64,000 bases of DNA. It comes from Crassaminicella thermophila. Its GTDB lineage: Bacteria > Bacillota > Clostridia > Peptostreptococcales > Thermotaleaceae. A program made the position numbers and the translations under genes. The stretch lies in NCBI RefSeq assembly GCF_008152325.1, contig NZ_CP042243.1:2175026-2239025 (forward strand), read 5' to 3'. Every line of letters begins with the position of its first letter. The first letter of the stretch is position 1. The notes under the pieces were generated by a model. It saw nothing but the letters and a program-made list of their open reading frames with translations, ran no database searches and was not told the origin of the DNA. Below, in pieces: positions 19,845-62,350 of the stretch.

Positions 19845-21110
19845 TTAAGCCTTTTCTATTCTATTTCTTCCATTTTCTTTGGCTTTATATAATAATTTAT
19901 CTGATTTTCCAATTAATTTAAGAGCATTTTCTTTTTCTAGTTCTGCAACTCCTCCACTGATTGTTACCTTAATATTTTTTTCCTTAAATTTAATGTTTGA
20001 AATACTCTTTCTCAATCTTTCAGCCAATTTATATGCATCTTGCAAACCTGTTTCTGGTAGTATTATGATAAACTCTTCTCCTCCATATCTTCCGGCAATA
20101 TCGCTTTGTCTTATTTCGCTTTTTAATTTTTGGCTTATTTTTATTAAAACATCATCTCCAAATTGATGTCCATAAACATCATTAATACACTTGAACTTAT
20201 CAATATCAAACATAATTATTGAAAGTTTTTTATCATATCTTCTAGCTCTTTGTATCTCCTCTTCTAATCTTTCATACATGTATTTATGGTTATATAAGCT
20301 AGTTAATCCATCTATTTTTACCATTCTCTCTAACTCAAAATTTTTTTCCTTTAATTCTTGTAGTAATAAAAATGTTCTTATATTTGCTTTTAACCTCGCA
20401 ATAAAAACATTTTCATTAAAAGGTTTTGTAATATAATCATCTGCTCCAGAAGATAAAATATTTGAAATAATTTTTTGATTATCTATAGCAGATATAGCAA
20501 TAATTAAGGCATATTTATATTTTTTTCTCAATTCTAAAATAACTTGTTCTCCAGATATACTCGGCAAAACAAAATCTATTAAATACAAAGAATACGCTTG
20601 CATTTGATTTAAAAGTTCTTCTGCACAATTATAATAATCTACATTTGTAATATTGTTTAACTCAAATATTTTTTTTATAATCATAAGTTCTAATGAATTA
20701 TCATCTAAAACAGCTATTTTGGCTTTCTTTAATTGCTCATCTGCAAAGTCTACTAGCTCAAATCTATCAATATAATTTTTAAAACCATCTAAAAAGCTAC
20801 TTTTATGTATAAAGTCTATAACTCCTAAATTAAAAAGCTTATTTTTTGTTTCTATATCATCTTTTGCAGACAGCACAATAACAGGAATATTTTTATATGG
20901 GCTTTCATTTAAAGATTTTATAAAGTCCTCTCCTTTTTTATCTTTAAACTCTAATGCAGTTATAATAAGATCTATTTTTTTGTTTTTTAATACTTCAAAT
21001 GCTTCTCTAGGCGTTCTAACTGAAAAATACTCAAAATTTCTCTCTTCAATAATATCTTTTAAAATTTCTTTATAAAAAAAATTGTAATCTACATGCAAAA
21101 TCGATAACAT
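19845..21110 (-). CDS. Two-receiver diguanylate cyclase response regulator
   Basis: A 421-residue PleD-like protein: receiver 1 (1-118), receiver 2 (130-248), GGDEF (262-421). Receiver 2 has the acidic pair Asp136/137, phosphoacceptor Asp179 and Lys229, so it should be phosphorylated. Receiver 1 has Ala52 where the phosphoacceptor should be and HVDY instead of the acidic pair, so it is a pseudo-receiver. The GGDEF domain has an intact GGEEF (343-347) and the inhibitory I-site RQSD (334-337) five residues before it. It should make c-di-GMP with product inhibition. No kinase gene is adjacent. A target could be the exopolysaccharide operon 9 kb away. Confidence 0.92.
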   Translation of the reverse strand: MLSILHVDYNFFYKEILKDIIEERNFEYFSVRTPREAFEVLKNKKIDLIITALEFKDKKGEDFIKSLNESPYKNIPVIVLSAKDDIETKNKLFNLGVIDFIHKSSFLDGFKNYIDRFELVDFADEQLKKAKIAVLDDNSLELMIIKKIFELNNITNVDYYNCAEELLNQMQAYSLYLIDFVLPSISGEQVILELRKKYKYALIIAISAIDNQKIISNILSSGADDYITKPFNENVFIARLKANIRTFLLLQELKEKNFELERMVKIDGLTSLYNHKYMYERLEEEIQRARRYDKKLSIIMFDIDKFKCINDVYGHQFGDDVLIKISQKLKSEIRQSDIAGRYGGEEFIIILPETGLQDAYKLAERLRKSISNIKFKEKNIKVTISGGVAELEKENALKLIGKSDKLLYKAKENGRNRIEKA

Positions 21111-21345: not shown

Positions 21346-23886
21346 ATGATAAATTCTAAAGCTATCAAAAAAGAGTTGTTGCTGATTATTTTTTTTCTTT
21401 TGATTTTCACAAAAGCTACTTGGGCTGCAAAAAATGAATTCTTAACAAGAATGGATATTATTATTGTCTCAAATGATAATACAAAAGGAACAGAATTACA
21501 GTATAAAAATATCTTCCATACCATTAGCCTTGATAGTAAAACAATAAAATTATCTGAATTAGATGACTTTGACTTAACTAATGTAAAATTATTAGTTCTC
21601 CCTGCATCTGTTTCAAAAAACCTTCATAGTTCTTTAGAAGAAAAAATTTTAGAAGAAGTACATAAAGGACTAAATGTCATCATAGAAGAAAAATCCAATC
21701 TGATTGAAAAATTTGGAATTAATTTTTCACAAGAATTTGTATGGATAAATGCTATTTTAGATACTAACCATAAAAATCTTCCGATTCATTGGCCTGAAAA
21801 AATAAAAATCGAAAAATTTAACCCTCATAACTTAACCATCTTTTGTATGGGAAATGAAGAAAAAGTAGAAAAAAAAGAAGATGAAACCTTTATTTTTCAC
21901 AAGTATAAAGAAGAAGGTATACCTGTTATAGTAGGTGGCTCTTATGGCGAAGGAAAATTCTTATATATGGCAGCTACTCTTGATGAAGTATCTAGGCATG
22001 GATATACCAGATTTCCTTTTTTTCATGAAATCATCATAGATTATTTTGACTGTAAACCTAAAGTATCTAGAAAACAATTAATTGCTTATATGGATTGGGG
22101 ATATCATTACTTTGAAAATCCAGATGAACTTGCTAAGAAATTAAAAAACTATGGCATTACTCAAATTCATTTTAGTGGTTGGTACCCTTTAGAAGAAACA
22201 AAAGATTTCCTAAATAGATTTATTGATGCCTGTCATAGTAATGGAATTTATGTTTGCTGTTGGTTAGAACTTCCAATGGTTACAGAAGATTTTTGGAATG
22301 AACATCCTGAATGGAGAGAAAAAACGGCTTTAGAAAATGATGCTAAAATCGACTGGCGCTATTTAATGGCACTAGAGATTCCAGAATGTATGAAAGCAGT
22401 GCAATTAGAAATAAAAAAACTTTTAAATCAGTTTGATTGGGATGGTGTAGATCTAGCAGAAATCTATTTTGAATCTCCTGATCTAGGATTTGATTATCCA
22501 GATTCCTTCACGCCAATGAGTGATATTGTTAGAAAAGAATTTAAAGCAAAATATGGAGTAGATCCAATCAAAATATTTGATCCTGAAGATAAACATTATA
22601 AAGAAAAAGATCTTAATGCTTTTAAAAACTTTGTTCAATATAGAACTGATTTGTGTACTAAACTCAATCAAGAAATGATTATGTTTTTAAAAAACAAGGA
22701 AAATTTCAATAAAAATTTAGACCTTATTGTAACACAAATTGACACTTTTTTTGCTGAAAAAATGGAAGAAGATATTGGTGTAGATACAGATGCATTACTT
22801 GATTTACAAAAAGAGTTTGACTTTATATTTCAAGTTGAAGATCCATTTCCTCTATGGGATTTAGGCCCTGATCGATATGCCAAAATTGGACAATCCTATA
22901 AAGAAAAAACAAAAGAACATCGAAAAATAAATGTTGATATTAACATTGTAGAAAGAACTTATACACAATGGCCAAATCCTAAGCAAATTGGTTTAGAATT
23001 CTTAATGTTATTAGCAGAAGCTTCTAAAAATTTCAATCAGGTGTGTATTTATGCTGTTAATTCTCCTTATCCTTTTGATTATGCTTATGCACCTTATGCA
23101 CTTGCTTCATCTGTTAAAATGCATGAAAAAAGAGCTAATTTTTATGAATTTTCATCTTCTTTTCCTTTTATCTTTCATATAGAAACAAAAGGAAAAAATT
23201 TCTATTTAAATCAAAATTTATGGCCTTGCATTAAAGATAATGGCGTGATCATTCCAGCAGGAGATCATACCCTATCTTTTGAAAAAAATGACCACAATAA
23301 AAACAAACTATATATTACCGGAATAAATGGAGACATAAACAATTGTTCTTATAAAGATAATAATATTTTTATTCAATATAGTGAGAATAAAAAAGTATTC
23401 ATAACCTTAAATAAATATCCTGCAAAGATTGATTTTAATGGAGTAGTAAAAGATTTGCCCATCTTTTATAATGATGAAGGATTTACTGTCATTTGTCCCC
23501 CTGGAAACAATACAGTCATTTTCTATGATGAAATGATTAAACAGCCAACAGTTTTTATTGATAATAAAATAATTGACTTTTCAACCTATTATATAAAAGA
23601 TGGTCATATTCTATATCCTTTAGATGAAATACTATATGAAATGAAAGCTGGATATACATGGAATATAAAAGAACAATCCTTGTCTGCAGAAAAAAATGGC
23701 TACGTATTATGGTGCCAAGTTGGCAATAAAAAAGCTAGAGCAAATGGAAATGATTTTTTATTAGAAGTTCCATTAGTTTTTTATAATAACCACGTAATGG
23801 CTCCGTTAAGGTTTATAGCTGAGTCTCTTAATTATGACGTTTATTGGATTCCTGAAAATAAAGTGATAAAAATTATTTCAAAATAA
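21346..23886 (+). CDS. Secreted glycosidase-like protein with GATase-like and copper-amine-oxidase-N domains
   Basis: An 846-residue exported protein. A signal peptide ends near residue 28 (TWA-A). Residues 35-245 look like a glutamine-amidotransferase-like or beta-galactosidase trimerisation fold (LLVLPASV, VGGSYGEGKFLYMAATLDE). Residues 250-600 look like a TIM-barrel hydrolase of the GHL10/DUF187 type, with YMDWGYHYFENPDELAKKL, FSGWYP and DWDGVDLAEIYFE as likely active-site strands. The C-terminal 110 residues match the copper amine oxidase N-terminal repeat (NHVMAPLRFIAESLNYDVYW), a wall or surface module in Firmicutes. It is convergent with the exopolysaccharide operon, so it may process that polymer. 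The substrate is unknown. Confidence 0.7.
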   Translation: MINSKAIKKELLLIIFFLLIFTKATWAAKNEFLTRMDIIIVSNDNTKGTELQYKNIFHTISLDSKTIKLSELDDFDLTNVKLLVLPASVSKNLHSSLEEKILEEVHKGLNVIIEEKSNLIEKFGINFSQEFVWINAILDTNHKNLPIHWPEKIKIEKFNPHNLTIFCMGNEEKVEKKEDETFIFHKYKEEGIPVIVGGSYGEGKFLYMAATLDEVSRHGYTRFPFFHEIIIDYFDCKPKVSRKQLIAYMDWGYHYFENPDELAKKLKNYGITQIHFSGWYPLEETKDFLNRFIDACHSNGIYVCCWLELPMVTEDFWNEHPEWREKTALENDAKIDWRYLMALEIPECMKAVQLEIKKLLNQFDWDGVDLAEIYFESPDLGFDYPDSFTPMSDIVRKEFKAKYGVDPIKIFDPEDKHYKEKDLNAFKNFVQYRTDLCTKLNQEMIMFLKNKENFNKNLDLIVTQIDTFFAEKMEEDIGVDTDALLDLQKEFDFIFQVEDPFPLWDLGPDRYAKIGQSYKEKTKEHRKINVDINIVERTYTQWPNPKQIGLEFLMLLAEASKNFNQVCIYAVNSPYPFDYAYAPYALASSVKMHEKRANFYEFSSSFPFIFHIETKGKNFYLNQNLWPCIKDNGVIIPAGDHTLSFEKNDHNKNKLYITGINGDINNCSYKDNNIFIQYSENKKVFITLNKYPAKIDFNGVVKDLPIFYNDEGFTVICPPGNNTVIFYDEMIKQPTVFIDNKIIDFSTYYIKDGHILYPLDEILYEMKAGYTWNIKEQSLSAEKNGYVLWCQVGNKKARANGNDFLLEVPLVFYNNHVMAPLRFIAESLNYDVYWIPENKVIKIISK

Positions 23887-23926
23887 GAAGAAAGAAATAA
23901 GCAAGTCTTATTTCTTTCTTCTTATT
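23882..23926. terminator. Twenty-base-pair bidirectional terminator made of two gene ends
   Basis: Perfect 20-base arms (23882-23901, 23907-23926) with a 5-base loop. The stem contains the stop codons of both convergent genes and the last lysine and arginine codons of the minus-strand gene. It is followed by AAAA or TTTT on either side. Confidence 0.9.
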
Positions 23927-26295
23927 AAAAATATAGAAATAATAATGATTATGGTTAAAGTTACTATAAGAAAAATGGTAAAGTATTTTAGCTTAGAAGT
24001 AAATATTTCTTTTGGTATATTTTTATGCTCTATATTTCTCTCTTTTATCTCTATTTGATTTTCAATACTCTTTCCATAATATTTACAAAAAACATTTCCC
24101 AGTTCATCTATTATTGTAGCATTTCCTTTTAATTTCACAATTAAATTAAAATCTGTCAAATACTTTTTGGCCCACCCTAAACCTTCATTTTTCATCGAAG
24201 TAATTACGAGTACTTTTTTATCATGATTATATGGAGACTTTATAAGCTGTATAGTAGCCACTTTACTATCAAAATCTTCTAATAAAGTTATCTTTTCATT
24301 AGATAAAAATTTAGTGTAATCTTCATTAAACTTAATATGCATATTTTTATTCATATTATCAATAAGCCTATTTTCTTTTGGAAGGCCTATAACTATCATA
24401 TTTTTATCTTTATATGTATTATTATATTCATCTGCAGTTATAACTTCAAAATCATCTAAATCGTTTGTTTCATGACCCAAAAAAGCCATAATATTTCCAG
24501 CAATACTTATTTCTTCTGATGATGGCTTCTCAGATAAAACCATTAATAAATCATTAAATTTGTTATTCTGTATAAATGGACTTGAATAGTATTCAAAAAA
24601 ACTATCTTTTCTGTTGCTATGTGGTAAATATAAAAAAGATTCATTCGATAAATAAACCCATGAATTACTATCTAATCTTGTATCACACTCTACCCCTTCA
24701 ATATCAAGATAGAAAGTAACTTTTAAATCATAATAAGTACTATCTTTTACATCTTTTGGAATAGTTATCTCAAAAACATCATCATTTGCATTTTCATAGC
24801 TTAGTCTCTTACTTCCTATAGGTATATTATTGATATAAACAGTCATAACTGATTTATCAAAATTTAATATTTGTGAATATCTCATTTTAAGATATAGCTT
24901 TGCATCATCTTGTATAATCCAATTTTTAGGAATGTTAATTCCAAACTTTGCATTTTGCCGAAAAAGCCCTTCTATAAAAACATCTGAATATCCCATATCT
25001 TTTAAGGAAATATAATCAGAAACCTTCTGATTCTTTTTAACTATATCCAAATTTTTTGAAATAAACTGGGTATTTTTTTTCATTTGCATTACCATATCTT
25101 CAACTGTTAAAGATTTTACTGCCTTTATAATTGACTTATAATCATCTGATAATATAAGTAGCATTTTAAAATTTTTATTGTAGGGAGAATTTACTTCTTT
25201 TATCAATGCTTCTTTCTTGATATGCTCTTTTTCTTCTGTAGTTAGCAATAAAGAAATTTCATTAGGTAAATTATTACTACTTCCTATAAATATAATATTG
25301 TTTTTATCTTTATCCTTCGAATCACTAAATTTTTCGATTTTAATATCTAAATTTTTAAATGCCTGCTTTTGACCAAAGTTTGTTGATAGCAGCATTGCAG
25401 CTTTAAGATGCTCATTTTTAAAATCATCTGGTATGATTATTAAAGAATTTACAGGAAGTTCTTTACTCTCCTTTAGATACGGATATGGGTACTCTTTTAA
25501 GCTATTCTCATCTATTTTTTCTCTAAATGCTATATGTATATAAGATTCTTTATGATATACAATCCAATTTGCTGGATTAATCTCATCTAGACAAGGGGTT
25601 GTTGAAATTCTGCTGTAAGTTCTTATTTTAACTTCATTAAAACCTTCTCTAATATATTCTATTGGAATACGAACTTTTATGACTTCTCGATTTTTCTTTT
25701 TATTTTGTAGTCGTGTGCTATAAATCGGATAATTATTAATATATATTGTCAAAGTAGAGTTTATACATTTCTCTATATCACTCTGGCTTAAGATTAACTC
25801 CATATAATTTCCATCTTCAATTTTCCAGTACTTATCTACCGTAAAAAAAGAGATATAACTTCCATAGACTCCTTCAATATGCACATCATTATCAAAAAAA
25901 CGATAGTTTTTTTCATTTGTTTTACTAAAATATTCATTAATTGATTTTATAGGTTTGCTTGAAATATTTTTATCATTAGGAAGAATCATATCAAAATTTT
26001 TCCTTATAACAATTCCATTAATGCCTATTTTTTCTATATCTCTTAAAACATTTACAGCTTCTTCCCTCGTTTTATAATTTCCAACATACACTTTTATTAA
26101 GTTGCTTTTAATTTTATAAGCAGCATAACCATTTTGTATTAATTTATTATAAGTTTTATCTGCATTATTCTCTGCTTTAAAAGCTCCTATTTGAATAGTA
26201 TATCTTTCATTTGTCTCCGCATACCCATAAGCTGTGAAGTAGCCTAAAGGATTTAGTAGAAAAATAATGAGCCACACTACAATTATTTTCTTCAT
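23908..26295 (-). CDS. BcsB-like exopolysaccharide synthase subunit with SPOR domain
   Basis: A 795-residue exported protein, last gene of the operon. After a signal peptide (about 1-25) comes a SPOR/peptidoglycan-binding domain (30-100, YTIQIGAFKAENNADKTYNK). Residues 130-740 look like BcsB, with two similar halves, each containing a carbohydrate-binding-like strand set (TLTIYINNYPIYSTRL near 185 and MTVYINNIPIGSKRL near 500) and a flavodoxin-like region. A C-terminal helix (about 768-790) anchors it, followed by a basic tail. BcsB guides nascent polymer away from the synthase. A SPOR domain on it is unusual and would suit a Gram-positive wall, tying the exporter to septal or denuded peptidoglycan. 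Confidence 0.8.
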   Translation of the reverse strand: MKKIIVVWLIIFLLNPLGYFTAYGYAETNERYTIQIGAFKAENNADKTYNKLIQNGYAAYKIKSNLIKVYVGNYKTREEAVNVLRDIEKIGINGIVIRKNFDMILPNDKNISSKPIKSINEYFSKTNEKNYRFFDNDVHIEGVYGSYISFFTVDKYWKIEDGNYMELILSQSDIEKCINSTLTIYINNYPIYSTRLQNKKKNREVIKVRIPIEYIREGFNEVKIRTYSRISTTPCLDEINPANWIVYHKESYIHIAFREKIDENSLKEYPYPYLKESKELPVNSLIIIPDDFKNEHLKAAMLLSTNFGQKQAFKNLDIKIEKFSDSKDKDKNNIIFIGSSNNLPNEISLLLTTEEKEHIKKEALIKEVNSPYNKNFKMLLILSDDYKSIIKAVKSLTVEDMVMQMKKNTQFISKNLDIVKKNQKVSDYISLKDMGYSDVFIEGLFRQNAKFGINIPKNWIIQDDAKLYLKMRYSQILNFDKSVMTVYINNIPIGSKRLSYENANDDVFEITIPKDVKDSTYYDLKVTFYLDIEGVECDTRLDSNSWVYLSNESFLYLPHSNRKDSFFEYYSSPFIQNNKFNDLLMVLSEKPSSEEISIAGNIMAFLGHETNDLDDFEVITADEYNNTYKDKNMIVIGLPKENRLIDNMNKNMHIKFNEDYTKFLSNEKITLLEDFDSKVATIQLIKSPYNHDKKVLVITSMKNEGLGWAKKYLTDFNLIVKLKGNATIIDELGNVFCKYYGKSIENQIEIKERNIEHKNIPKEIFTSKLKYFTIFLIVTLTIIIIISIFLIRRKK

Positions 26296-26315
26296 TTTGT
26301 CCCCCTTATTTTCTT

Positions 26316-27581
26316 TTAAAATCTTTCTGTTTTATACCACTTTGCTTGGCGTTTTAACATTTTACTGCGAAGATAACCAATCATTCCTTTTATAGCTACA
26401 ACAATCCAAAGCTGGCAGTAGGTAAAATACATAATAGTTACTAAAAAAATATTCTTATAGTTACTTTCTCCTTTTTCTAATGTTAATGTAATACTTACTT
26501 CTAATACAAATAAAACATATGATAAAATCCAAATAATTATAAAATTCCCTGATAAAGTAATTTTTAAATCTGTAAACAAACCTAATAAAAAAATAACATC
26601 TGATATGAGTACAGAGGATAAAAATAAAATATATATAGAAAAGAAATAATATAAATCAAATAATACGCTACCATTCTTTGCACTAAAAATCTCCTTAAAA
26701 TATTTTGCTAAAACATAGATATTTCCATTTGCCCATCTTGTTCTTTGCTTAAACCAAACCTTTAACGTTTCAGGTTCTTGCTCCCAAGTTACAGCCAATG
26801 GCATAAATGCAATTTGATATCCCATATTATAAATTCTAAAACTAATTTCCGTATCTTCAGCTATTGCATTTGGGTCCCATCCTCCTAATGATTCCATAAC
26901 ACTTCTTCTAACAATAAAATTTGTCCCAGGAATTGTACAAATTCTAAGGAGTTTCCATCTTCCAGCCTGAGCCATCCATTGAAAGCTTAAAGTCTCAATA
27001 TTGATAAATCTAGTTAACCAATTTCTATTTCTATTTCTCGTCCTAAATTTTCCAATCACTGCTCCATATTTTTCACAACCAACAATAGTACTTACTAAAT
27101 AACGTAAAGACAATTTTTCTGGTGTATTATCTGCATCATAAACAACAATAAATTCTCCGCTCGATGCATTAAACCCAATATTTAATGCATTTGATTTTCC
27201 TTTTCCTCCACTTATAGAATCTGTCGTAATTACTTTTATATTTCTATCTGCATAAGCATATTTTATTTCTTCTAAAACATTTTTTGTGTTATCAGTAGAA
27301 TTATCATTAATAACAATAACTTCTATTTTATCCGTAGGATAATCAAGTGATAAAACAGCCTTTAAGGTTCTTCCAATAACTTTTTCTTCATTATGAGCAG
27401 GAATTAATACAGATATAGTAGGGTATTTTTCTACATCTTTCAACACACTTATCCCATTTTTCGTAACATCTAAATTATATATATATCCACTTATGGTCAA
27501 AAATATATTTAAAAGCAACAACCACCAAGTAGAAATTAATGCATATAGAAATAAATAATCCATTATATTCATGCGCTTCAC
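26316..27581 (-). CDS. Family 2 processive glycosyltransferase (exopolysaccharide synthase)
   Basis: A 421-residue membrane polymerase of the BcsA/PgaC/hyaluronan synthase type. Helices lie at about 8-33 and in the C-terminal third. The D,D,D,Q(Q/R)xRW set is complete: Asp93, the DAD motif (149-151), AED (241-243) and QRTRW (279-283). There is no PilZ domain, unlike BcsA, so c-di-GMP control would have to come from another protein; the degenerate GGDEF protein two genes upstream fits. The ATG overlaps the DUF2334 stop by four bases, and the BcsB-like gene follows after 20. The sugar used cannot be read from these motifs. Confidence 0.9.
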   Translation of the reverse strand: MKRMNIMDYLFLYALISTWWLLLLNIFLTISGYIYNLDVTKNGISVLKDVEKYPTISVLIPAHNEEKVIGRTLKAVLSLDYPTDKIEVIVINDNSTDNTKNVLEEIKYAYADRNIKVITTDSISGGKGKSNALNIGFNASSGEFIVVYDADNTPEKLSLRYLVSTIVGCEKYGAVIGKFRTRNRNRNWLTRFINIETLSFQWMAQAGRWKLLRICTIPGTNFIVRRSVMESLGGWDPNAIAEDTEISFRIYNMGYQIAFMPLAVTWEQEPETLKVWFKQRTRWANGNIYVLAKYFKEIFSAKNGSVLFDLYYFFSIYILFLSSVLISDVIFLLGLFTDLKITLSGNFIIIWILSYVLFVLEVSITLTLEKGESNYKNIFLVTIMYFTYCQLWIVVAIKGMIGYLRSKMLKRQAKWYKTERF

Positions 27582-29197
27582 CTAAATAAGTCTTTATTTT
27601 TTTTATTTGATACTATAAAAATAACTAAAAATATTAAACAAAAAATCAATACAAAATAAGAAAGTATATTAATCCCTATATAAAAATAGCTTTTTTTATC
27701 TGTATCTTTTTCCCCATAACTATCTGCTTGAAAAATAATCTCCCCATTTTCTGATCTTATATAAATATCTTCCCATTTAACCCAATTATTCTCTTTTCTT
27801 AAATCATAAAATTCCACTTTTTTATCTTCAAATTTTCCAACAATGGTTTTAAGATAATTTATATCAAGGTACGGATGAAAAAAAACTCCAGCAGTATATC
27901 CCCTTACCATAGAAATTTTTGAAAAATTATCAAAAATATCATAAATAGCCAATGGATTATCTGGATCTACATAACCAAGATTCTCTGGTACTAGCTTATA
28001 AAACAAATTTGTATCATATAAATTATATGGATAAGAAACAGTAACAAAACCTGCATCACTTGTTTGAACTTGCCCAATATAAGTTGAAAAATATTTTTTT
28101 AAAACTTTATAGCCTTCTTGGCTCATAGCATAATGAGGAGCTTCAAATGCTAATGGATATATATCATTTTTTACACATTCCTCAATTCCTTTACCAACTC
28201 TTGTATATATCCATTCATTTATATCTACACTTAAGGGCTTATCATTTATCCCATCCCAAAACTCAAATCCTTCTCCTGTTACTTCTCCACCAAACGCCTG
28301 ATGGGTAAATCCATGTAAAACAACACTTCCTCCTAATTCTTGTAAATATTTTATCGTTTCTACAAATTCCTTATTATCAGACATTAAAGTGATATAACCA
28401 GTCTCTGGATCTTTGTAAGCAGGAATTAAAGCTATCATAAATGGTATATTTTTTTTGTATAAATATTCACCAACAGCTTTTAATTTTTTAACATCTCTAA
28501 ATGGATGTACATCTTCGATTCTTACATATACCCTGCTTTTTCCAATATTTTCTTCTCCAAAAACATCATATAAAAAATCTCCTATTATATAGAATAATTC
28601 AGAATTTATTTCAACTCTTGAAATATAATAAAAATTATTTTCTTGAATGATATAAGGATAACTCTTTTCTCCATTATCTACCCAAGCATAAACCTTTATA
28701 TTTTCAGATTTTCCATCCACAATGTTATATGCTTTTATGTCTTCATTATTAGTTATATAACAACTATTATTTTTGTAATTTACTTTTATAAAATTGTAAA
28801 ATTCTCCTTTATAAGCTAAATGAATTCTTTCATTTTCTTTAAGAAATTTTTCTACACCTTTTCCCATCCAGCATATAACTTTTTTTGTTTTTTTTATATC
28901 TTCCATAAACAATACATTAATAAAATCTCCTTCAATACCTATTATAAATACATAATCATATTTTTCTATTTCATGTTCTTTATAATCCTCAACATTTTTT
29001 TCAGTAACACTCACATTAAAATGTCCTAAAAGTTCTCTTACAGATGTTACAATATCCTCTATACTTCCAAAATTAGCTCTATGATCATAAACCAATAAAA
29101 CATTTTTCTTTTTTTCTTCTCCATAAGAATATTGCGAAAAATTAATAAATAGTAAGCAAATTAGAAAAAGCAATAGCATTTTCTTAAACAATATCAT
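27578..29197 (-). CDS. DUF2334 polysaccharide-deacetylase-like membrane protein
   Basis: A 539-residue protein with a signal peptide or anchor (about 1-26), an N-terminal flavodoxin-like region (residues 30-200), a DUF2334 domain (about 220-450) and a C-terminal helix (about 508-532). DUF2334 is a divergent NodB-like deacetylase fold: RVYVRIEDVHPF gives the acidic metal region and VVLHGFTHQAFGG the histidine region, with FEAPHYAMS further on. It overlaps its neighbours on both sides (14 and 4 bases). A role in trimming acetyl groups from an amino-sugar polymer at the membrane is likely but inferred. Confidence 0.8.
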   Translation of the reverse strand: MILFKKMLLLFLICLLFINFSQYSYGEEKKKNVLLVYDHRANFGSIEDIVTSVRELLGHFNVSVTEKNVEDYKEHEIEKYDYVFIIGIEGDFINVLFMEDIKKTKKVICWMGKGVEKFLKENERIHLAYKGEFYNFIKVNYKNNSCYITNNEDIKAYNIVDGKSENIKVYAWVDNGEKSYPYIIQENNFYYISRVEINSELFYIIGDFLYDVFGEENIGKSRVYVRIEDVHPFRDVKKLKAVGEYLYKKNIPFMIALIPAYKDPETGYITLMSDNKEFVETIKYLQELGGSVVLHGFTHQAFGGEVTGEGFEFWDGINDKPLSVDINEWIYTRVGKGIEECVKNDIYPLAFEAPHYAMSQEGYKVLKKYFSTYIGQVQTSDAGFVTVSYPYNLYDTNLFYKLVPENLGYVDPDNPLAIYDIFDNFSKISMVRGYTAGVFFHPYLDINYLKTIVGKFEDKKVEFYDLRKENNWVKWEDIYIRSENGEIIFQADSYGEKDTDKKSYFYIGINILSYFVLIFCLIFLVIFIVSNKKNKDLFR

Positions 29198-30032
29198 ATT
29201 CTAGCTCCTTTTCAGCTAACTCCTTATATTCAAAAATACTCGTAATCTGCTTATTGTATTGAATAAATCCTATCTTAATATCAAGTTTATATTCTTTTTC
29301 ATCATTTCCTTCTTGAATTATTATATGTGATAGCGCTTTCTTTAATCTCTCTTTTAAAATTTCTGCCCCTGTTGCATCCGTATTCTGAAGTATAATAGAA
29401 AAAATATTTTTATCTGTTCTATATTCTTTATCTTCATTTCTTATGGTTTTTGTAATAATTTTTGCAAATACTTTTATAATTTTTTCTACTTGTGTTTTTC
29501 CATAAATAGAAATTAGTTCTTCAAAATACTGAATCTCTATTACCATTAAAGTTAAATGAAAGTTATAACGATTCGCTCTGCTTATTTCTTCATCTAAATC
29601 TTTATAAAATTCCTTTGCATTACTTAATCCAGTAGCCTCATCAATAGTCACTAAATTTTGAATATCTTTTTCTATTTTCTCTAGCTCCCATCTCATATCC
29701 TTTAAATGTTTGCTAAATTTTCCAGTAATAAATGCTGTTAATGGGAAAATAATAATCCAATAAAAGCTTTTACTTATATCAAAACCCTTATTAAATATGC
29801 TTTGATAAAGAGCATAGCTTCCATATCCAAATATAAAAAATGCACTCGTTAATAATCCTGTAACTATATTCGTAAAATAAGCAATATATAATAGGATAAA
29901 AACCAATTCATATAAAATAAAATCTTTAAAATCAATTTCATCTACATCAAAAATCATGAATGTTGTTATAATGAATATTTCAAGTATTAATAGAAAAAAA
30001 TACATATCCACATATTTATTCGCTTTTTTCAT
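29184..30032 (-). CDS. Membrane protein with degenerate GGDEF and intact I-site (probable c-di-GMP receptor)
   Basis: A 282-residue protein with four or so helices (residues 10-105), a short coiled segment and a GGDEF-fold domain (125-282). The active-site loop is lost: where GGDEF should be, residues 207-211 read DKNIF. The inhibitory site RxxD survives as Arg198-Asn-Glu-Asp201, exactly five residues before that loop, as in active cyclases. Such proteins (PelD, and PssE of Listeria as I recall) bind c-di-GMP and switch on a polysaccharide synthase. The gene lies second in the operon, and the synthase lacks PilZ. Binding itself is inference. Confidence 0.82.
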   Translation of the reverse strand: MKKANKYVDMYFFLLILEIFIITTFMIFDVDEIDFKDFILYELVFILLYIAYFTNIVTGLLTSAFFIFGYGSYALYQSIFNKGFDISKSFYWIIIFPLTAFITGKFSKHLKDMRWELEKIEKDIQNLVTIDEATGLSNAKEFYKDLDEEISRANRYNFHLTLMVIEIQYFEELISIYGKTQVEKIIKVFAKIITKTIRNEDKEYRTDKNIFSIILQNTDATGAEILKERLKKALSHIIIQEGNDEKEYKLDIKIGFIQYNKQITSIFEYKELAEKELEYDIV

Positions 30033-30048
30033 AAAAGATCCTCCTAAA

Positions 30049-31152
30049 TTAAAAAGCTAGCAAAGCTTGTAAGTTATCAAAAGAAAAAACTTCATAAGTA
30101 TCTATATTCCCAAAAGCTCCATATAGTGGACTAGTCTTATCCAATATTTGTAGCCGTAGCATTCGTTTCATTGCCTGTTTATACAAAGCTTCATCTCTAA
30201 TATTTTTTGCTATTCTTGCCGTAATAGCATAAACTGCAGTAGATTCATCTTCACAAATAGGATATCCAGTTTTTATATTATATTCCAAAAAAATCCCTTT
30301 GCCAAAAACCTGTTTCCTAATCCATTTTATTGTCTCTTGTTTTACCAAATTCATTTCACTAAGATGTAAAACAACTAAAAGAGCTTCTATAGAATTTATA
30401 TTTTCATTGGTTGAATATCTTTTTGAGTCTATGTTAAAAGATTTTTTATACAAAGGCAGTTTATTAGAAATATACCCTCCTTGTATAATTTTTAATCCAT
30501 TTTTATAAGGCACTTCCCATTTTCTATGTACATTTCTAAGTAAATTCATAGTATATAAGTCAATATAACAAAGATCAATTTTTTTTGCTCTATATTTACT
30601 TCCAAATTCATAGTAACTAGTTAAATACCCTTTATTCGTACTATATTTTAATAATCCTTTGCTGATTCTTTTTAAGATTTTATAATATTTTTCTTCTTTC
30701 CATAAATCATAAGCATATATCAAAGAACGAACAATTCTTAAATCATCTAAGGATGCAGAACTATTAGATATTTGATTATTTTCTTCTCGTATTCTCCATC
30801 GAATCAACCCTTCGTCTCCCATCATCTTGTTTTTAACAAGATCTAGATGCTGATCAAAACCTTTTTTATCTCCTTTTTCAACATAATATTGCATGATTAG
30901 ACCTTCTGATTCAGAAAGAATCTGATAGCCTTTGGCTAACTCACCAATTTCATCTGTATCTAAATAATTTGTATATATCCCTCCCTTATTAGAGGACATT
31001 TTTGTCTTTATAAACTCTAAACAAGACTTTTCTTCTTCTAAATATTCATGGCCATATCCTATATTTCTTTCTAAGTAAAATTCAGGCTGTCTTAGCATAA
31101 TAAAACGTCCAAATAATATAATTATCATAAAAATTATAAAAATCCGCTTCAT
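30049..31152 (-). CDS. Glycoside hydrolase family 8-like protein
   Basis: A 367-residue protein with an N-terminal membrane anchor or signal peptide (about 3-20), first gene of the exopolysaccharide operon. The repeated helical pattern and the segment SASLDDLRIVRSLIYAYDLW, with an Asp in the place of the GH8 catalytic-base region, suggest the (alpha/alpha)6 barrel of GH8 enzymes such as BcsZ and Listeria PssZ. Glutamate of the GGIYTNYLDTDEI segment may be the acid, but the fit is loose. A hydrolase that trims or clears the polymer is common in such operons. A 16-base gap separates it from the next gene. Confidence 0.68.
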   Translation of the reverse strand: MKRIFIIFMIIILFGRFIMLRQPEFYLERNIGYGHEYLEEEKSCLEFIKTKMSSNKGGIYTNYLDTDEIGELAKGYQILSESEGLIMQYYVEKGDKKGFDQHLDLVKNKMMGDEGLIRWRIREENNQISNSSASLDDLRIVRSLIYAYDLWKEEKYYKILKRISKGLLKYSTNKGYLTSYYEFGSKYRAKKIDLCYIDLYTMNLLRNVHRKWEVPYKNGLKIIQGGYISNKLPLYKKSFNIDSKRYSTNENINSIEALLVVLHLSEMNLVKQETIKWIRKQVFGKGIFLEYNIKTGYPICEDESTAVYAITARIAKNIRDEALYKQAMKRMLRLQILDKTSPLYGAFGNIDTYEVFSFDNLQALLAF

Positions 31153-45603: not shown

Positions 45604-45725
45604 TCACCGGTTGAAGGTAGCGGAAGTTTTTCGACCGTTATTGGACGGGCCTCTGGAGAGACTCTCATGAGCACCGAAGGGGAAAGCCATATATGGTGAA
45701 ACTCTCAGGTAAAAGGACAGGGGAT
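45604..45725 (+). ncRNA. Glycine riboswitch (single complete aptamer)
   Basis: The core at about 45650-45725 carries the conserved glycine aptamer sequence: CUGGAGAGACU, GAGCACCGAAGGGG, GUGAAACUCUCAGGUAAAAGGACAG. P1 can form from CCUCU (45651 on) and AGGGG (about 45719 on). The preceding 45604-45650 holds CCGGUUGAAGG and related pairings, perhaps a ghost first aptamer. Two terminator-like hairpins lie between it and the ACT-domain gene. Confidence 0.92.
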
Positions 45726-45745
45726 TTTAAATGGATGAAAAACAT

Positions 45746-62250: not shown

Positions 62251-62350
62251 CTCTTATCCAGAGTGGCGGAGGGATCTGGCCCTATGAAGCCCGGCAACCA
62301 GCATATTATGCAATGGTGCTAATTCCAGCGGTATAACCGACAGATGAGAG
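62251..62350 (+). ncRNA. SAM-I (S-box) riboswitch
   Basis: Conserved S-box sequence: CUCUUAUCCAGAGUGGCGGAG at 62251 on (quoted in part: CUUAUCCAGAG), GGAUCUGGCCC, GAAGCCCGGCAACC, GGUGCUAAUUCCAGC and CGACAGAUGAGAG. All four helices can be drawn. It should switch off the downstream genes when SAM is abundant. Confidence 0.97.

Follow-up and report, generated by a model that had tools for sequence, protein, structure and literature searches.

The 64,000-nucleotide stretch of Crassaminicella thermophila DNA analysed here (contig NZ_CP042243.1, positions 2,175,026 to 2,239,025; hereafter the window) harbors a five-gene operon that is very likely the clostridial orthologue of the ydaJKLMN and pss exopolysaccharide (EPS) machines of Bacillus subtilis and Listeria, combining a probably c-di-GMP-switched synthase with predicted deacetylation, trimming and SPOR tethering (Table 1). 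The system itself is known YdaJKLMN/Pss biology, and what is new is a modest variation on it, namely a SPOR fusion, an intact metal triad in the DUF2334 protein and a second receptor-exporter pair.

By analogy with the characterised homologues, the PssE/YdaK-like protein would be anchored in the membrane, its dead GGDEF domain facing the cytoplasm, and binding of c-di-GMP at its RxxD I-site would activate the GT2 synthase, which would polymerise a nucleotide sugar into an EPS chain and hand it to the membrane-anchored BcsB outside. The GH126 enzyme would then trim or release the polymer. Two further steps are suggested by domain or fold: the DUF2334 protein may remove N-acetyl groups from the polymer as it emerges, and the SPOR domain of BcsB may tether the exporter to denuded peptidoglycan, focusing export at septa or new poles.

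Table 1. Features of the operon, its surroundings and the related gene pair elsewhere in the genome (window positions unless a locus is given; operon genes in 5' to 3' order).
Feature	Position	Strand	Description
Five-gene operon	31152 to 23908	-	
pssZ/ydaJ-like GH126 glycoside hydrolase	30049..31152	-	N-terminal hydrophobic anchor or signal
pssE/ydaK-like membrane protein	29184..30032	-	Four helices and degenerate GGDEF domain
ydaL/pssB-like DUF2334 protein	27578..29197	-	RIEDVH, HGFTH and EAPHY intact; hydrophobic helix at both ends
ydaM/pssC-like processive GT2 synthase	26316..27581	-	GTG start; DADN, AEDTE, QRTRW
ydaN/pssD-like BcsB	23908..26295	-	N-terminal extracytoplasmic SPOR (residues 29-98) after signal peptide
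Inverted repeat	23882-23901/23907-23926		Perfect, 20 nt, 5-nt loop; junction of convergent genes
Secreted 846-aa protein	21346-23886	+	GHL10/GHL6-like glycosidase domain, C-terminal Cu_amine_oxidN1
Receiver-receiver-GGDEF protein	19845-21110	-	GGEEF and RxxD intact
Glycine and SAM riboswitches	45643-45730 and 62251-62350	+	
pyrC-linked PssE-BcsB pair	L020:7050-10115 = G000:C1, about 2117050-2120115		

Operon layout and known relatives

Open reading frame and Pfam scans delimit the operon, whose genes are separated by +16, -14, -4 and +20 nt and are therefore read as a single transcriptional unit. The initial annotation described the five close-set minus-strand genes correctly in their content, motifs and spacing, but its range of 21346-31152 begins too low, as the first part of it is occupied by a convergent plus-strand gene. 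The secreted protein encoded there is possibly a hydrolase related to the polymer, and a sequence search found no solved relative of it. The inverted repeat at the junction is probably a bidirectional terminator that is common to both convergent genes and ends the operon. At Rfam gathering scores no c-di-GMP riboswitch was found in the window that could precede the operon, the riboswitches present being those for glycine and SAM, and a promoter scan gave no excess over shuffled sequences.

The B. subtilis ydaJKLMN operon matches that of the window in its five product types and in their order, the order being taken from the papers and not from a sequence alignment; it comprises a glycosyl hydrolase, a degenerate GGDEF receptor that carries RxxD five residues before SDERI and changes conformation upon binding c-di-GMP, and the L, M and N proteins for EPS synthesis (PMC5422440, PMC7064775, PMC13274460). 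BcsB and DUF2334 are also present in B. subtilis as one of the control genomes. The ydaJKLMN operon is under SigB control, and the literature consulted for comparison mentions no SPOR domain in YdaN, whereas the BcsB of the window has one.

Homologues of Listeria PssB, PssC, PssD, PssE and PssZ (GH126) are all found in the operon, and a Listeria locus (L016) correspondingly holds homologues of the DUF2334, GT2, BcsB and GGDEF genes. The Listeria order, however, is A-B-C-D-E with pssZ elsewhere, as against Z-E-B-C-D in the window, and its DUF2334 protein is without the metal triad and its BcsB without SPOR. More generally, two main orders were observed: (Z)-E-B-C-D is that of Clostridia, (Z)-A-B-C-D-E that of Paenibacillus, Acetobacterium and Listeria, and A-E-B-C-D occurs as an intermediate in a few loci. 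Of the comparisons proposed in the initial annotation, that with Listeria pss reveals a relationship and that with the clostridial ccs cluster a different system, while ydaJKLMN, the closest counterpart, had been missed. The ccsZABHI cluster is likewise a clostridial GT2 synthase operon with a hydrolase, but it has a GT2-PilZ fusion, a GH5 enzyme and MBOAT acetylation genes, and no BcsB homologue (PMC7710045). The Pel system resembles the operon in having a degenerate GGDEF I-site receptor with four membrane helices (PelD); nevertheless, membership was rejected, as the GAF-GGDEF arrangement of PelD, PelE, the GT4 enzyme PelF and PelG are all missing from the operon.

SPOR-BcsB fusion and the second PssE-BcsB pair

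The last gene of the operon matches BcsB (Pfam E-value 2.5e-66) and SPOR (1e-13), and its SPOR domain opens with YTIQIGAF, the usual start of this domain. The same fusion is found in Petromonas, Peptoclostridium, Fusibacter, a Tepidanaerobacteraceae bin, another Bacillota bin and several relatives, and in none of the 57 PssA-bearing loci. As judged from these sequences, a SPOR-BcsB fusion that recurs in several clostridial families goes beyond the described systems, and we found no description of it in the literature. Most homologues are without SPOR, which indicates that the domain is dispensable to the machine.

Denuded septal glycan is the ligand of SPOR domains (PMC6895207), and the proposal of the initial annotation that SPOR couples export to the cell wall is plausible on the strength of the domain. 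Since YdaK, YdaM and YdaN gather at the septa and poles of B. subtilis cells (PMC5422440, PMC7064775, PMC13274460), the fusion may make explicit a septal or polar placement. Alternatively, SPOR could be a spacer or bind the wall in a generic way without positioning the machine, a lesser but substantial possibility that would sit well with the at least four changes in SPOR presence on the GT2 tree and with its being missing from the BcsB of close relatives such as Tepidibacter. On the other hand, of the three SPOR matches in the genome that of the window is the strongest, and the domain lies directly behind the signal peptide in every SPOR-bearing BcsB whose start was read.

The genome has only one synthase of the PssC/YdaM kind, yet it encodes a second PssE (RVED-KRYCI-GKDSF) adjoining a SPOR-less BcsB near pyrC, with no synthase beside the pair. 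In a relative (G015), no PssE or BcsB was found apart from the pyrC-linked pair, and the hydrolase and GT2 are 1.65 Mb away. The pyrC pairs of the two genomes are syntenic and orthologous, and group with high support in both trees. The sole pair of G015, being far from the synthase, suggests that receptor and exporter form a module that may serve a synthase at a distance. Together, the SPOR fusion and the split pair offer handles on the septal or polar siting of Yda proteins and on the partner subunits of PssE.

The degenerate GGDEF protein as a probable receptor

The PssE-like protein carries an I-site (R198-NE-D201), followed after exactly five residues by DKNIF where GG[DE]EF is expected (RNED-KEYRT-DKNIF), and its GGDEF domain aligns without gaps, downstream R229 included, to a GGDEF domain solved with c-di-GMP (PDB identifier 3ign). 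Listeria PssE shares the I-site and has DKDDA in place of DKNIF. The loss of GGDEF with retention of RNED at I-site spacing, as first noted from the sequence, is thus borne out. The AlphaFold2 model (mean pLDDT 87) consists of four N-terminal helices and a GGDEF fold, and it matches c-di-GMP-bound GGDEF structures, for example 3ign and 6tts, with a TM-score of about 0.8 by target length.

Of 76 PssE/YdaK-type sequences, 75 retain RxxD and none has GG[DE]EF; the set was drawn mostly from loci around related synthases and includes some few sequences that duplicate parts of the genome of the window. This pattern in the sequences is far beyond chance. In an alignment of 32 diverse members, R155, R198 and D201 never vary and R229 hardly does. 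Retention of the I-site along with disposal of the active site by selection is the pattern expected of a receptor, and virtually all copies show it, the cyclase site being gone and the receptor site preserved. Thus, an I-site receptor route to EPS that was known from two Bacilli appears widespread in Clostridia, and systems of the YdaK/PssE type seem to be a frequent way for Gram-positive bacteria to do without PilZ. The sole member without RxxD is the homologue from Enterococcus faecalis (L017:10342-11202), the rest of whose cluster is kept. E. faecalis is not known to have diguanylate cyclases, and its PssE homologue is possibly a c-di-GMP-independent version.

Homology to characterised proteins supports well the receptor role assigned in the initial annotation: Listeria PssE, without which no EPS is made, binds c-di-GMP with a Kd of 0.79 uM (PMC4125290), and B. 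subtilis YdaK must have its I-site (R202, D205) intact for EPS to be formed (PMC5422440, PMC7064775). The PssE-like protein is therefore very probably a c-di-GMP receptor, by analogy, and this is established biology rather than a new finding. A different role is nonetheless conceivable, in which the dead GGDEF protein mainly docks an active diguanylate cyclase, its I-site gripping the c-di-GMP-loaded cyclase in a hand-over and the contact gating the synthase. YdaK does bind DgcK directly through a contact that needs I-site residue R202 (PMC7064775), and a candidate cyclase for the operon, the intact receiver-receiver-GGDEF protein of Table 1, is encoded nearby. This cyclase, however, appears to be soluble, and another gene lies between it and the operon; moreover, c-di-GMP by itself is bound in vitro by the domains of YdaK and PssE (PMC4125290, PMC5422440). 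Hence, we regard docking as the main function to be unlikely and favor a receptor that responds to c-di-GMP itself.

Synthase, hydrolase and DUF2334 protein

The GT2 synthase (421 aa) shares 57% identity with Listeria PssC from end to end. Pfam finds no PilZ domain in it, the only PilZ match of the genome lying elsewhere, and the protein ends (KWYKTERF) soon after its last hydrophobic segment, leaving no room for such a domain; a cryptic PilZ domain is therefore excluded by length. While the absence of PilZ and the presence of the catalytic motifs agree with the initial annotation, its further suggestion that the receptor function had moved away from PilZ is not supported. The GT2 fits the PgaC/IcaA model (181 bits) better than that of CelA/BcsA (91 bits), the GT2 relatives compared likewise end without a PilZ-sized tail, and the PilZ-type ccs cluster of clostridia is a different gene set, as described above. 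A PilZ-free origin of the synthase is the simpler reading of these sequences. A GT2 tree of PgaC versus BcsA ancestry was uninformative, its E. coli outgroups being too distant. The synthase is not a PNAG synthase of the pga/ica type either, as its 181 bits are below the equivalog cut-off of 422.3, and the operon has no ORF for a small partner of the PgaD/IcaD type.

The hydrolase had been called GH8-like, and it does match the GH8 clan in Pfam; its family, however, is GH126, as its best solved relatives are CPF_2247 (PDB identifier 3ren, E-value 4.5e-64) and Listeria PssZ (6r2m, 1e-18). Residues with roles assigned in GH126 (PMC7479077) are present, viz., the Glu of SESEG, the Asp and Arg of DDLR, and the Tyr of CYIDL and of TAVY. 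The specificity of GH126 is unsettled, 3ren being termed a probable amylase and 6r2m an EPS glycosidase. A cellulose synthase of the ccs/bcs type, which the combination of GT2, BcsB and a GH8-clan hydrolase might bring to mind, is highly improbable given the GT2 scores, the lack of PilZ, a hydrolase that is neither GH8 nor GH5, and the dissimilar ccsZABHI gene set.

The DUF2334 protein (Pfam E-value 9.3e-55) retrieved no relevant match in a sequence search of the PDB, and fold comparison was used instead. Foldseek matches to its model (pLDDT 88) are headed by PelA, the heparan sulfate N-deacetylase NDST1 and CE4 deacetylases, the best being PelA (PDB identifier 9cgy, E-value 1.1e-8). The predicted metal ligands, an Asp (RIEDVH) and an HxxxH motif (HGFTH), are present, and the model thus shows a deacetylase fold of the PelA/CE4 type with the metal triad kept. 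The complete triad is kept by 15 of the 20 loci that lack PssA and by none of the 56 that carry PssA, and DUF2334 proteins of the Listeria/Paenibacillus type have lost the triad. This is to be read as a clade difference and not as a statistical association, as PssA changes only once on the tree and counts as a single event. PssA is a membrane protein for which a weak PMT_2 match was obtained in one of six tested members; it is absent from the locus, and a search run without a positive control found no match to it in the same genome. From the models, we predict that the clostridial polymer is de-N-acetylated and the listerial polymer not, so that the intact and dead triads translate into a testable chemical difference between the two.

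These observations may be combined, tentatively, into a reading that we consider rather doubtful as a whole. The system would be a modular clostridial variant in which SPOR anchors secretion to septal peptidoglycan, one synthase works with two alternative receptor-exporter pairs (that of the operon with SPOR and that near pyrC without), and the intact DUF2334 protein de-N-acetylates the polymer; the Listeria/Paenibacillus type, by comparison, would have a dead DUF2334 protein and PssA, which may be a GT-C enzyme that adds side-chain sugars. If so, the site of polymer deposition, and the signal that brings it about, could depend on which pair is used.

Among the loci compared, a record titled 'Lutibacter sp. 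B2' (L023), which bears the name of a Bacteroidota genus, carries a clostridial Z-E-C-D locus with a PssE identical to that of G008 (L104), a member of the window's own family, and this public name looks wrong.
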